Source: Blastococcus saxobsidens | Lineage (GTDB): Bacteria; Actinomycetota; Actinomycetes; Mycobacteriales; Geodermatophilaceae | Assembly: GCF_002938435.1 (NCBI RefSeq) | Contig: NZ_POQT01000001.1 | Span: 186,001-250,000 of the forward strand | DNA length: 64,000 bases | Direction: 5' to 3' | Shown here: piece by piece, positions 3,527-57,563 of the stretch | Layout of the letters: the number at the start of each line of letters is the position of its first letter | How positions within the stretch are numbered: position 1 is the stretch's first letter | Position numbers and translations under genes: made by a program | The notes under the pieces: generated by a model | What the model saw: the letters and a program-made list of their open reading frames with translations, nothing else | The model's database searches: none | What the model was told of the DNA's origin: nothing

Positions 3527-3603
3527 TTCGTCCGACGTCAAGGGAGCCCGTCGCCGTCGCCCGTTGCTGTCCGGGCGGCGTGGGTCCACGCGGACCCCCG
3601 CCG

Positions 3604-4572
3604 TCAGGACAGCGTGGCGGCGAGGGCCCGGCCGAGCGCGGCGCCCGAGGCCCACGCGCTCTCCACCTTCGAGGGTGCGTGCCACCCGTCACCGCACAGG
3701 CCGATCCCGTCGACGAGCGCGAACGGCTCGTCGCGGGGAGCCGCCGGCTTCGCGGACGACCAGCGGTGCACGTGGGTCCAGTCGGGATCGGCGTGCATCC
3801 CGAGCACCGACCGGACGGCGCCCACCACCTCTGGCACGGCGGCGTCCGGATGGGCGAGGTGCCGCGCGGCCAGGTCGGGCGTCGTGTGGGCCACGAGGAC
3901 GGGCGCGCCGTCGCCCCGGCGGTCCCCGTCGTCGGCGATCCACTCCAGCACCGGTGAGTCGTTCACGAAGACGCCGTGCAGGTCGGCCGGCCAGCGGCGC
4001 GAGGACCACCCGAGCACGACGGCGAGGGTCGGTCGCCATTCCTCCGCCGCGGCCTCCCGGGCGAGGGCGCTCGCCGGGTCCAGCAGGCGCCCGGCCTGGG
4101 AGCCGGGCATGGCGAGTGCCACGGCCGGCACGCGGGCGCCGTCGACGACCGGCCCCGGCGTCACCTGCCGCACGGTGTGCTGGGAGGAGACGGTCAGCCC
4201 GGTCGCGAGGTCCTCGACGAGGCTGCGGAGACCGGCGGGTGCTCCGTAGCGCAGCGGGCCCGTGGTCCTCCGCCGGAGGCCGTCCGGCCCCGCGACCGCG
4301 AACGTGTCCGTCCAGGGCCGGGCCAGGCCACGGGTCACCCAGTCGCCGACCACGCCGGCGAAGGGGGAGTCCGCGCCGGCGGTCAGGTACGAGGCGCCCA
4401 GGTCGACCGGGCGGCCGTGGATCGTGCGCGACGACATCCGCCCGCCGGGCCGGCGGCCCCGGTCCAGCACGCGGACGGTGACACCGGCCCCGGCCAGGGC
4501 GCGTGCGCACGAGAGCCCGGCGATGCCGGCCCCGACGACGGTCACGGGTGCATCCAGCGTCTGATCGGCCAC
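3604..4572 (-). CDS. FAD-dependent amine-oxidase/renalase-like oxidoreductase
   Basis: Flavoprotein of the NAD(P)/FAD-dependent renalase-like group; the substrate is unknown. The dinucleotide-binding VVGAGIAGLSCARAL lies at about residues 12-26, the RRPGGRMSS motif follows the second strand, and the C-terminus has the FAD-closing LCGDGWHAPSKVESAWASG. The 322-residue length is normal. GTG 4572 was chosen because CAGGAT lies exactly 6 bases upstream (leaderless pattern); the upstream ATG in the same frame would run past the start of the divergent methyltransferase. Confidence 0.82.
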   Translation of the reverse strand: MADQTLDAPVTVVGAGIAGLSCARALAGAGVTVRVLDRGRRPGGRMSSRTIHGRPVDLGASYLTAGADSPFAGVVGDWVTRGLARPWTDTFAVAGPDGLRRRTTGPLRYGAPAGLRSLVEDLATGLTVSSQHTVRQVTPGPVVDGARVPAVALAMPGSQAGRLLDPASALAREAAAEEWRPTLAVVLGWSSRRWPADLHGVFVNDSPVLEWIADDGDRRGDGAPVLVAHTTPDLAARHLAHPDAAVPEVVGAVRSVLGMHADPDWTHVHRWSSAKPAAPRDEPFALVDGIGLCGDGWHAPSKVESAWASGAALGRALAATLS

Positions 4573-54446: not shown

Positions 54447-55286
54447 GTGAGCGGACGGCTGGTGCTGGGCGGGGCACCCCTCGGGCAGCCCGGCGACGTG
54501 GGCCCGCGGCTGCGCGCGGTGATGGCCACGGCCGACGTCCTCGCCGTCGAGGACACCCGCCGCCTGCACCGGCTGGCCGCCGACCTCGAGGTCACCTTCA
54601 CCGGCCGCATCGTCACCTTCCACGAGTCGGTGGAGCAGGCGCGGCTCCCCGGCCTCCTGGCCGCCCTCGCCGACGGCGCGACGGTGCTGCTGCTCACCGA
54701 TGCAGGCATGCCGTCGGTGTCCGACCCCGGCTACACGCTGGTGCGGGCCGCCATCGACGCCGGCATCGGGGTCACGTCGGTGCCCGGCCCGTCCGCCGTC
54801 ACCACCGCGCTCGCGGTGTCCGGGCTGCCGGTGGACCGGTTCTGCTTCGAGGGGTTCCTGCCGCGGCGGTCGGGGGAGCGGCGGTCGCTGTTCACCGCGC
54901 TGGCCGACGAGCGCCGCACGATGGTGTTCTTCGAGTCCCCGCACCGGCTGGCCGACGCGCTCGCCGACGCCGCCGCCGTGCTGGGCGAGGACCGCGCGGC
55001 CGCCGTCTGCCGGGAGCTGACCAAGACCTACGAGGAGATCCGCCGCGGCGGGCTGGCCGAGCTCGCAGTGTGGGCGGCCGAGGGCGTGAAGGGCGAGATC
55101 ACCCTCGTGGTCGCCGGCGCGCCGGAGCGCGTGGTGGAGCTGTCCGGGCCGGAGATCGCCGCCGCCGTCGCCGCGGAGGAGGCCGCCGGGGTCACCCGCA
55201 AGGACGCGATCCGCGCCGTCGTCACCCGGACCGGACTGCCCAAGCGGACCGTCTTCGACGCCGTCGTCGCCGCCAAGACCCCCTGA
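54447..55286 (+). CDS. rsmI: 16S rRNA (cytidine1402-2'-O)-methyltransferase
   Basis: Ribose-methylates C1402 of 16S rRNA. 279 residues. VLGGAPLGQPGDVGPRLRAV and VLAVEDTRRLHRLA at the start, then VTFHESVEQARLPGLL, LLLTDAGMPSVSDPGYTLV (SAM site), PGPSAVTTALAVSGLPVDRF, FEGFLPRRSGERR and FFESPHRLADALA. The C-terminal helical extension ends KRTVFDAVVAAK. Start GTG 54447 is supported by the -10 element. A long palindrome begins 5 bases after the stop. Confidence 0.95.
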   Translation: MSGRLVLGGAPLGQPGDVGPRLRAVMATADVLAVEDTRRLHRLAADLEVTFTGRIVTFHESVEQARLPGLLAALADGATVLLLTDAGMPSVSDPGYTLVRAAIDAGIGVTSVPGPSAVTTALAVSGLPVDRFCFEGFLPRRSGERRSLFTALADERRTMVFFESPHRLADALADAAAVLGEDRAAAVCRELTKTYEEIRRGGLAELAVWAAEGVKGEITLVVAGAPERVVELSGPEIAAAVAAEEAAGVTRKDAIRAVVTRTGLPKRTVFDAVVAAKTP

Positions 55287-55291
55287 CTCTC

Positions 55292-55350
55292 GGCATGGGA
55301 AGCGATCCATGCGTCTTGGGCGCCGAGATACATGGATCGCTTCCCATGCC
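55292..55350. repeat. Dispersed palindrome, family 2, copy 1
   Basis: A perfect 20-bp stem (outer arm GGCATGGGAAGCGAT, then inner CCATG) encloses a 19-base loop containing TTGGGCGCCGAGA. It closely resembles copy 2 at 56379-56437. The pair flanks the DUF559 gene. Confidence 0.85.
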
Positions 55351-55362
55351 TTGAGCGGGCGG

Positions 55363-56325
55363 TCAGATCGCACGGAGCTGGGCCACGCGGGCGCGGTAGA
55401 CCTCCAGGATCCTGGCGCGTACACCCTCCGGGTCGCGGATCACGTCCGCGTAGGTGAAGCGGAGCACCACCCATCCCAGAGCAGCCAACTCCCGATCGCG
55501 GGCGAGATCCCTCTGGCGGTCCTCGGGCGAGGTGTGGTGCTTCGCGCCGTCGAGTTCCACCGCGAGCATGGCTTCCGGCCAGGCGCGGTCCAGAACGACT
55601 CGGCGGTCGCGCAGCTGAATCGGGAGCTGGCCGGTGCTGCGCGGTAGCGAGGGGTGTCGGAAGACGTTCAGCACACCGTGTGCCTCGAGCTCGCTCTGGC
55701 ACCCGTCGTCGATGAGGTCGAGGGTCTGGAGCAACAGCCGTCGTCCGCCCACGTTGGGCCGGTCGGCGAGCGCATCGCGGAGGAGCGCCACCGTCGTCAG
55801 CCCTTGGCGGGTGATGTCGAGGGCGAGCGGACGACGTTCGCCCACCGGGAGCAATGGCCATGAGTCGACGATCGCCCGCGGCAATGTCGTGACCAGGAGC
55901 CCGCGACGTTGAACGCACTGCTCGGAGGTGGGGTCGAAGCGCAGGCGGCGGTGCACGACGAGTCCCTGCGACCCCGCGCGGCGGATGCCGTGGTCGACCG
56001 TGAGATGTACGGGGTGCTCGAACGCGCGGACGCCCCAGACGGCGAGCGCCGTCGTGTGGCTCAGCGCCGCTTCAGGTCCGGCGTGCAAGAGGGCAGCACG
56101 CAGGAGCATCACCTCGCTGTCGGTGGTGCCGCGCAGCCGGTAGACGTGCGGGAAGACGCGGACGAGGTTCTTCCGGCCCACGTGCCCGTCGAGGACGAGG
56201 GCCGGCACGCGCTGGAGCAGTTGGCGCCGCGTGGCCAAGCCGTCATTGCGGTCGAGCACTTCTCGGATCACCGGTCGCCAGTCCACGCCGGGAGACTGCT
56301 GTGTTCGACGGTGCGGTGGGGCCAT
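55363..56325 (-). CDS. AbiEi-like antitoxin/DUF559 endonuclease-domain protein
   Basis: 320 residues. The N-terminal part (about 15-100: IREVLDRNDGLATRRQLLQR, VYRLRGTTDSEVMLLRAALL, AALSHTTALAVWGV) matches the AbiEi-type antitoxin winged helix. The C-terminal 110 residues resemble DUF559/Vsr-like nuclease domains (LPIQLRDRRVVLDRAWPEAM, LAVELDGAKHHTSPEDRQRD, LAALGWVVLRFTYADVIRDP), with the Glu, His, Asp and Lys expected of a PD-(D/E)XK site. No toxin partner is adjacent. Base composition is visibly less GC-rich than its neighbours, suggesting transfer. It is flanked by the two family 2 palindromes. Confidence 0.82.
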   Translation of the reverse strand: MAPPHRRTQQSPGVDWRPVIREVLDRNDGLATRRQLLQRVPALVLDGHVGRKNLVRVFPHVYRLRGTTDSEVMLLRAALLHAGPEAALSHTTALAVWGVRAFEHPVHLTVDHGIRRAGSQGLVVHRRLRFDPTSEQCVQRRGLLVTTLPRAIVDSWPLLPVGERRPLALDITRQGLTTVALLRDALADRPNVGGRRLLLQTLDLIDDGCQSELEAHGVLNVFRHPSLPRSTGQLPIQLRDRRVVLDRAWPEAMLAVELDGAKHHTSPEDRQRDLARDRELAALGWVVLRFTYADVIRDPEGVRARILEVYRARVAQLRAI

Positions 56326-56378
56326 GAAGCCAGATCTGTGGACAGCGCTGCGCCGCAAACGAAGGACGGTCGCACTCG

Positions 56379-56437
56379 GGCATGGGAAGCGATACACCCG
56401 TTCTGGGCGCCGAGACGGGTGTATCGCTTCCCATGCC
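56379..56437. repeat. Dispersed palindrome, family 2, copy 2
   Basis: Perfect 22-bp stem with the same outer arm GGCATGGGAAGCGAT but inner arm ACACCCG instead of CCATG; the opposite arm changes to match. The 15-base loop TTCTGGGCGCCGAGA is nearly the same as copy 1. It ends 5 bases before the corA stop. Confidence 0.85.
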
Positions 56438-56441
56438 TGGG

Positions 56442-57563
56442 TCAGAGCCAGCCGTTGCGCTTGAAGCCGCGGTACAGCAGCACGATGGCGGTGAGGATGA
56501 CCAGCAGCACCGCCGGGTACCCCCACCTCTCGTCCAGCTCAGGCATGTACTCGAAGTTCATGCCGTAGATCCCGGCGATGGCCGTGGGGACGGCGATGAT
56601 GCCGGCGTAGGCGGAGATCTTGCGCATGTCCTCGTTGTCGGCCATCTGCGTGCGGGCCAGGGAGGCCTGCAGGATCGAGGTGAGCAGCTCGTCGAGCCCG
56701 GACACCTGGTCGCGCACCCGGATGGCGTGGTCGAAGACGTCCCGGAAGTAGGAGCGCATGGCCTCGGGGACGACGTCGACGGGCCGCTCGGCCAGCTTCT
56801 GCAGCGGCACCTCGAGCGGGGACACCGCCCGCCGCAGCGACATCAGCTCGCGCTTCAGCTGGTACAGCCGGCCGACGTCGTCCGTGCGCTCGGGGCTGAA
56901 CACCGACGCCTCGAGCTCCTCGACGTCCTCCTCGACCGCGCCGGCGACCTCGACGAAGGTGTCCACCACCAGGTCGGCGACGGCGTAGAGCACCGCGGCC
57001 GACCCGAGGCACAGCAGGTCCCGCTGCTCCTCCAGCCGGTGCCGCAGGTCGGCCAGGCCGCTGTGCTCCCCGTGCCGGACGGTGATGACGTACCGCTCGG
57101 CCAGGAAGACCATCACCTCGCCGGTGTCCACGACCTCGCTGGTCGCGGTCAGCTCCTCGTGCTCGATGTAGGTGGCCGTCTTCAGCACCATGAACAGGGC
57201 GTCGTCGTACCGCTCGAGCTTGGGCCGCTGGTGGGCGTACACGGCGTCCTCGACGGCGAGGGGGTGCAGGTCGTACTCCTCGGCGATGGTGCCGAGCTCC
57301 TCCCCGGTGGGGGCGTACAGCCCCAGCCAGACGAAGCCACCGCGCTCCTCGGCCACCCGCAGCGCGTCCTCGGGCCGCACCGGCTCCTGGCGCCGGCCGT
57401 CGACGTAGACCGCGCAATCGACGACGGCGGCGGTGCCGTCGGGCCGGCTGGAGGTGCGGCGCGGACGTCCCGCCGGCCGGGGCCGCAGGGTCGCCCGTGC
57501 GCCCGGTGGTGTCTCCGACGGGAGTTCCAGCGGCGCGACGGGGGGCGTCTCACCGGTGCTCAT
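56442..57563 (-). CDS. corA: CorA-family magnesium/cobalt transporter
   Basis: Pentameric divalent cation channel, 373 residues. The first 45 are a Pro/Arg-rich extension. The cytoplasmic funnel (about 50-305) includes VWLGLYAPTGEELGTIAEEY, LHPLAVEDAVYAHQRPKLER and the long helix HAIRVRDQVSGLDELLTSIL. TM1 ends in the signature YGMNFEYMPEL, followed by TM2 YPAVLLVILTAIVLLYRGF and a basic tail. ATG 57563 has GAGGAGG upstream. Confidence 0.95.
   Translation of the reverse strand: MSTGETPPVAPLELPSETPPGARATLRPRPAGRPRRTSSRPDGTAAVVDCAVYVDGRRQEPVRPEDALRVAEERGGFVWLGLYAPTGEELGTIAEEYDLHPLAVEDAVYAHQRPKLERYDDALFMVLKTATYIEHEELTATSEVVDTGEVMVFLAERYVITVRHGEHSGLADLRHRLEEQRDLLCLGSAAVLYAVADLVVDTFVEVAGAVEEDVEELEASVFSPERTDDVGRLYQLKRELMSLRRAVSPLEVPLQKLAERPVDVVPEAMRSYFRDVFDHAIRVRDQVSGLDELLTSILQASLARTQMADNEDMRKISAYAGIIAVPTAIAGIYGMNFEYMPELDERWGYPAVLLVILTAIVLLYRGFKRNGWL

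Follow-up and report, generated by a model that had tools for sequence, protein, structure and literature searches.

Within the 64,000-nucleotide (nt) window analysed here, that is, the whole stretch at positions 186,001 to 250,000 of contig NZ_POQT01000001.1 from Blastococcus saxobsidens, a DUF559-type nuclease gene is enclosed by two 59-nt palindromes, and this palindrome-nuclease gene-palindrome unit is probably a selfish mobile cassette of a homing-like kind, with lone palindromes dispersed elsewhere. The comparative support for the cassette includes the matched bracketing of such genes, the dispersal of the palindromes, presence and absence among genomes, solo and cassette states, a gene tree at odds with the species tree, and the fold of the protein. 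A hairpin-bordered mobile gene cassette had been suggested in an initial annotation of the window. Its mobile character is supported by the bracketing, the solo-versus-cassette states and the presence/absence pattern, and its borders are indeed palindromic. However, a working hairpin is not required for the palindromes, because a dimer on two symmetric half-sites would also explain their arms.

The palindrome pair and the enclosed gene

The locus consists of the following features:

55292..55350, no strand: palindrome 1 (59 nt), lying past the 3' end of the nuclease gene, where this gene and rsmI converge
55363..56325, minus strand: AbiEi-DUF559 nuclease gene, encoding 320 aa when read from the ATG at 56325 (Pfam, PADLOC AbiEi profiles, AlphaFold, Foldseek, VIA-align)
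56379..56437, no strand: palindrome 2 (59 nt), 4 nt from the end of corA
54447..55286, plus strand: rsmI, an open reading frame (ORF) found at 23 of 23 genus loci, whose stop codon is the left cassette edge
56442..57563, minus strand: corA-like transporter gene, an ORF with a match in 23 of 23 genus genomes, whose stop codon is the right cassette edge

The left neighbour is presumably rsmI, as named in the initial annotation, and the right one is presumably a corA-like transporter gene. The two near-identical palindromes described earlier around an AbiEi/DUF559 gene were confirmed at the above positions. Each has an inner stem between its outer arm GGCATGGGAAGCGAT and a centre of 7-13 nt; the two copies have the outer arms GGCATGGGAAGCGAT and the centre loop TGGGCGCCGAGA in common, and their inner stems are unlike each other yet paired within each copy, exactly as had been noted. 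The 14-mer arm GCATGGGAAGCGAT, searched with up to two mismatches, was found four times in the window against 0.23 expected, all four matches being exact, and four or more matches were reached in none of 100 shuffles. The stop codon of the nuclease gene lies 12 nt from the end of palindrome 1, and palindrome 2 starts 54 nt upstream of the gene start. The third-position GC content is 0.80 in the nuclease ORF versus 0.97 in corA, in line with the earlier remark that the gene is less GC-rich than its neighbours.

According to Pfam, the window protein contains PF04480 (DUF559) and PF18741 (MTES_1575), and it also matches the AbiEi profiles of PADLOC. Its AlphaFold model (310 residues, mean predicted local distance difference test score 95.8) is that of an AbiEi-like N-terminal part fused to a Vsr/EDxHD-like C-terminal nuclease domain; the EDxHD-type fold carries the conserved acidic and His residues, and the nuclease residues are invariant in the alignment. 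AbiEi binds 23-bp inverted repeats. A trans-acting transposase or relaxase had been proposed as something to look for, and the bracketed gene itself, judged from its predicted DNA-binding part and nuclease fold, is the best candidate for such an enzyme. No Y1/HUH domain is present among its Pfam matches (DUF559 and MTES_1575 only) or in the fold seen by Foldseek and VIA-align. No gene for an AbiEii nucleotidyltransferase toxin is adjacent, the neighbours being rsmI and corA at all 23 loci, with AbiEii unsearched elsewhere in the genome.

Within the nuclease domain, PADLOC and NCBIfam gave weak partial matches to large anti-phage proteins, with scores that fell far short of the NCBIfam cut-offs. 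Assignment to a defence system was rejected because no system was found, and a role in phage defence, which the earlier mention of a phage-defence-like domain pair might suggest, is unsupported by this analysis. The plasmid search returned two weak matches and the phage search none.

Occurrence of the palindromes across the genus

We compared 23 Blastococcus genomes (designated by G numbers, G000 being the window genome, and their loci by L numbers). A DUF559-type gene lies between rsmI and corA in 21 of them; G012 has a lone palindrome at this site, and G019 (L040) has a 386-bp gap with a C-terminal remnant of a DUF559-type gene, which is a decaying cassette. Eight of the 21 genes belong to the subfamily of the window gene, termed A-type (the other seven are 68-71% identical to the window protein), and all eight loci have GGCATrGG palindromes on both sides. 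The remaining 13 genes are distant (24-30% identity to the window protein, 12 aligned), and their palindrome pairs are mostly quite different.

Matching 5' and 3' flanks (score >=18) were found at 56 of 75 DUF559-type loci, namely 19/21 at rsmI-corA, where G003 and G001 failed, and 37/54 elsewhere; the controls gave 3/1500 for mismatched pairs and 2/239 for other genes. For this test, 3 of 83 loci were without a gene model and 5 of 80 with a profile score <90 were dropped, while the 60 loci outside rsmI-corA were picked by genome and not by flank (59 of 128 PF04480 matches and one other). Alignment A1 comprised 72 references minus L045, L065 and L098, with the window gene in place of its own copy L050 and with a corrected gene start for L037. 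The DUF559 subfamilies each have their own palindrome, alike on both sides. In a second subfamily, the outer arm GTGCGC is kept and the inner stem varies by species, the two flanking copies often agreeing.

Across loci, with pairs excluded where both are at rsmI-corA, palindrome likeness is at background below 60% protein identity; the threshold is reached by 8% of pairs in the 60-70% range and by 34% at >=70%. Likewise, palindrome likeness increases with protein identity among 18 A-type loci (Mantel rho 0.29, p = 0.014). Blastococcus TF02A-26 carries two A-type genes with unlike palindromes. When GTDB was scanned with the A-type alignment, using larger flank windows without a null of their own, 36 of 53 loci passed (at least nine of the 53 being contigs of genus-set genomes), including all 15 of >=62% identity. 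These 15 belong to Blastococcus, Geodermatophilus, Modestobacter and Trujillonella, and one of them, L123, is without a listed hairpin pair.

The suggested search for further copies was carried out with the exact left arm. In G000 this 14-mer is found at 17 places on one strand and at 14 on the other, giving 17 palindromes, and it is confined to them; 15 of the 17 are lone and away from the window gene. Both 10-mer arms are exact in 14 of 17, with an identical span in all 14, and a reversed-pattern control gave no match. When 16 of the 17 copies were aligned (one with an indel was left out), positions 1-15 of the 5' arm were invariant and the 3' arm nearly so; over 26 pairs, 93% of the cells were paired and 18 cells had changed on both sides, compared with a shuffle mean of 10.5 (18 reached in 2 of 500 shuffles) and at most eight with slid partners. 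Among 29 copies from G000, G001 and G002, the inner stems have mainly two forms, with a TGC or a CCC core, sometimes mixed with one form per arm, as if, judging from these sequences, copies had exchanged arms. The palindromes are single, 57-59 nt in size and of near-constant length.

By exact pattern, A-type palindromes are present in all eight A-type genomes (1 to 28 each), and they are found away from the cassette in seven of these eight versus 4/15 other genomes (Fisher p = 0.008). The copies of G015, G019, G020, G021 and G022, and about half of those of G008, entered the survey as counts. It had been reasoned that palindromes unrelated to DUF559 genes would argue against a cassette; they are indeed not confined to such genes, but palindrome type and gene type are linked.

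A further palindrome family, CGAACTCGTGGC, has one to five copies in 15 of 23 genomes, and some of these copies are the cassette's own pair. At L244 of G007, two identical CGAACTCGTGGC palindromes (1961-2055 and 3562-3656) lie 1.6 kb apart with about 20 identical flanking bases; by eye, they bracket a sigma-factor-like gene and a neighbour, and no DUF559 gene.

Gain, loss and exchange of cassettes

Comparison between species, as read from the genome sequences, shows the cassette to be mobile. At one junction, G006 and G010 have the palindrome-gene-palindrome arrangement, G017 has a single palindrome, and G007 has a lone A-type palindrome. The G017 palindrome differs from the two copies of G010 at one and three of 58 positions, and its flanks are 91-92% identical to those of G010. 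Together with the lone palindrome of G012 at rsmI-corA, this answers the earlier call for a comparison of empty sites. One dispersed G000 site was followed in 22 of 23 genomes: G000, G008 and G020 each have an A-type palindrome of their own there, four genomes have a different element, and 15 have nothing, including the closest relative, G009.

At the same junction, L173 (G021), L176 (G004) and L183 (G019) hold an imperfect hairpin of a different kind, CCCCTCTGCCCCC ... TGCAGAG or a near variant, which is probably another dispersed element. L175 (G005) has a GTGCGC-type palindrome in a 192-nt gap, both ends of which repeat CGCCGCGGCTAG, possibly a target duplication or a duplicated gene end.

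The sister genomes G000 and G009 are 94.6% identical over four proteins. In G000, which carries the A-type gene, one exact pattern finds 14 palindromes; G009, with an assembly 91% complete, has a different gene and no palindrome by that pattern. In a FastTree phylogeny, read without considering support values, a Geodermatophilus protein is grouped with the A-type protein of G000. The A-type proteins of G004 and G005 are 94% identical, although the species tree does not place these two genomes as sisters. Their DNA identity is 92-98% in gene windows, 81-91% at the edges, 77-91% in rsmI and 78-93% in corA (windows near the far ends of the stretch, at 62-77%, were left out); on the right side the likeness ends about 17 nt beyond the palindrome, and the left edge is not sharp.

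Same-type palindromes at shared sites keep their loops (12 pairs, 0/5000 resamples), and some palindrome positions are old, as judged from the sequences. Palindromes can also flip in place, since the orthologous junction of L208 (G004) and L243 (G008) holds the same palindrome in opposite orientation. At five of eight G002 sites, the other palindrome type occupies the same junction in G004, G007 or G008. Among same-junction pairs of different type, loop likeness does not exceed that of random pairs (15 pairs, p = 0.24; in both loop comparisons a few pairs have one flank only in common). Concerted in-place re-typing of old palindromes was considered as the principal explanation and rejected, because different-type loops are random-like; whole replacement, or independent arrival at the same spots, fits better.

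Mechanism, alternatives and known systems

For the homing-like cassette, we infer that the window protein binds and cuts the palindrome and that repair spreads the element. The protein would bind its own palindrome via the AbiEi-like part at two symmetric half-sites (~23 bp), and the Vsr/EDxHD domain would cut or nick there. A cut at a lone or other-type palindrome would then be repaired by copying from the cassette or from another copy. Such repair would carry the gene to sites where a palindrome already lies, seed lone palindromes at the 3' ends of genes, and keep the flanking pair similar. If the flanking copies recombined with each other, the gene would be lost and a single palindrome would remain. 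The 5' palindrome may double as an autorepression operator. On a wider view, about as likely as not, these units form a new class of selfish DNA that joins an antitoxin-type DNA-binding domain to a homing-type nuclease, represses itself and homes via one ~58-bp palindrome; each gene lineage would have a fast-changing palindrome of its own, and successive types would take over the same gene-end niches across the family. If true, competing elements repeatedly rewrite the sequence at which ordinary genes end.

Several points weigh against the homing-like cassette. Binding and cutting are predictions, and with an intact palindrome on either side, the cassette would have to be spared by its own enzyme, which is not so for a classic homing gene. 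By eye, no clear target-site duplication, as left by DDE insertion sequences or MITEs, was seen at the one dispersed G000 junction among 22 genomes, with no base-exact empty allele. A clear flank match is missing at 19 of the 75 DUF559 loci, two of them at rsmI-corA, and the contrast between the G004/G005 cassette and its corA side is small. The A-type gene is at rsmI-corA in 14 of the 15 GTDB loci, and new locations are therefore rare. Dispersal is not universal, as one B-type palindrome pattern had a single match in 23 genomes; among A-type genomes, G021 has no copies found other than the two of its cassette, and in G015 a single one lies elsewhere. Palindromes also occur in four genomes without an A-type gene (seven in G001, eight in G002, one in G019 and 13 in G022). 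Finally, A-type palindromes bracket two ordinary genes of G008 as well, for an alpha/beta-hydrolase and a glycosyltransferase(-9) (L234:1053-1979 and L239:1067-1999), which are possibly cargo or merely lie among dense copies.

The main rival, which we consider possible but clearly less likely, is a RAYT-like system, in which a host-tamed nuclease mobilises the palindromes, perhaps via a single-stranded hairpin, and the gene is a passenger fixed in place. Lone dispersed palindromes of near-constant length, the extensive pairing with changes on both sides, an A-type gene found mostly at one locus, dispersed sites that are empty in some genomes and filled in others, and the inverted palindrome at an orthologous site would all suit such a system. 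However, the gene comes and goes with one palindrome staying, its tree departs from the species tree, and a Y1/HUH domain is missing; paired changes could also arise from symmetric dimer half-sites or template-switch correction, with no hairpin needed.

It is improbable that the palindromes are bidirectional terminators or insulators under selection, with DUF559 genes merely lying between two of them. Their position would agree with this: among 74 dispersed copies from six genomes (located with a home-made gene caller, and including 11 dispersed of the 28 copies of G008), 36 are convergent, 34 tandem, three divergent and one inside a called gene, compared with 12, 33 and 13 for convergent, tandem and divergent window junctions; of the 106 gene 3' ends next to these copies, 98 are no more than 40 nt away (median 11), and lone G000 palindromes mostly follow stop codons directly. 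Yet a search of 55200-56500 for intrinsic terminators, in which a GC hairpin leads into a T run, gave none, and a terminator needs neither a sequence shared by the two sides of a gene yet different between subfamilies, nor presence/absence between close species. In G000 the 14-mer arm was found in palindromes only. The Rfam search of 55000-56700 gave four matches up to E 1, all to microRNA-precursor models below the gathering score, and no match at 15 other loci.

Slightly less credible still is a set of operators of an AbiEi-like regulator, whose regulon sites drift together with it. According to an excerpt of PMC7319586, proteins with the AbiEi fold bind long inverted repeats that precede the gene encoding them, and palindrome likeness rises with protein likeness. 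Against this, the sites follow stop codons, with divergent promoters at 3/74, one pattern gives 14 copies in G000 versus none in G009, and the nuclease residues are invariant. The loops at shared junctions of different type are random-like, and the sites therefore look replaced rather than drifted. Chance, or an ordinary repeat spread by another transposase with DUF559 genes as common hitchhikers, is very hard to credit: it would account for palindromes in genomes lacking the A-type gene and for the two bracketed ordinary genes, but the DUF559 subfamilies have unlike palindromes, each alike on both sides, and therefore no single outside enzyme explains them.

The homing-like cassette resembles both RAYT/REPIN systems and homing endonucleases and is a member of neither, because it has no Y1 domain and its supposed target is uninterrupted. 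It has the appearance of selfish mobile DNA of a kind not described so far, in a soil-bacterial family, a claim based on its falling outside these systems and on a search of open-licence PMC literature, where palindromes around DUF559 genes are undescribed among the matches listed by title and abstract start (weak evidence of absence). DUF559 proteins, annotated as having unknown function, thereby gain a testable substrate, the palindrome beside each gene, and the many natural nuclease-palindrome pairs with changed specificity would be useful for reading a recognition code. The findings also suggest a second origin of REPIN-like genome-wide palindromes with an unrelated enzyme, and tie the AbiEi antitoxin fold to mobile-element biology.

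As in RAYT/REPIN systems, a nuclease-type gene stands beside copies of a palindrome that also lies, singly, at scattered extragenic positions (in 7/8 A-type genomes), gene type corresponds to palindrome type, and palindromes also occur without the gene. Unlike those systems, the enzyme is of the AbiEi-Vsr/EDxHD and not the Y1/HUH kind, the palindrome is a single one of 57-59 nt, and the cassette gene itself comes and goes, leaving one palindrome. REP hairpins are short (20-40 nt), tagged and often arranged as inverted doublets, according to excerpts of PMC3733652 and PMC3116915.

With EDxHD homing endonucleases (I-Bth0305I) and Vsr-like nucleases, the protein shares the nuclease fold with its conserved acidic and His residues, and as with the homing endonucleases the gene is present or absent at one site among relatives. 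It differs from them in its AbiEi DNA-binding part and dispersed palindrome family. The gene is free-standing between two intact copies of the supposed target and, unlike an EDxHD homing gene, does not interrupt it, so that the occupied allele would not be protected in that way. Compared with the type IV antitoxin AbiEi of AbiE (and Rv2827c), there is no adjacent AbiEii toxin gene, the protein is fused to a nuclease, and the repeat is also found at the gene 3' end and dispersed. Finally, IS200/IS605 and the derived palindromic miniature elements (described here in part after an excerpt of PMC3116915) likewise have one gene between two similar palindromic ends, and non-autonomous palindromes; they differ in having a Y1 transposase, and the palindromes described here stand apart by being long and almost perfect, with a single type at either end.
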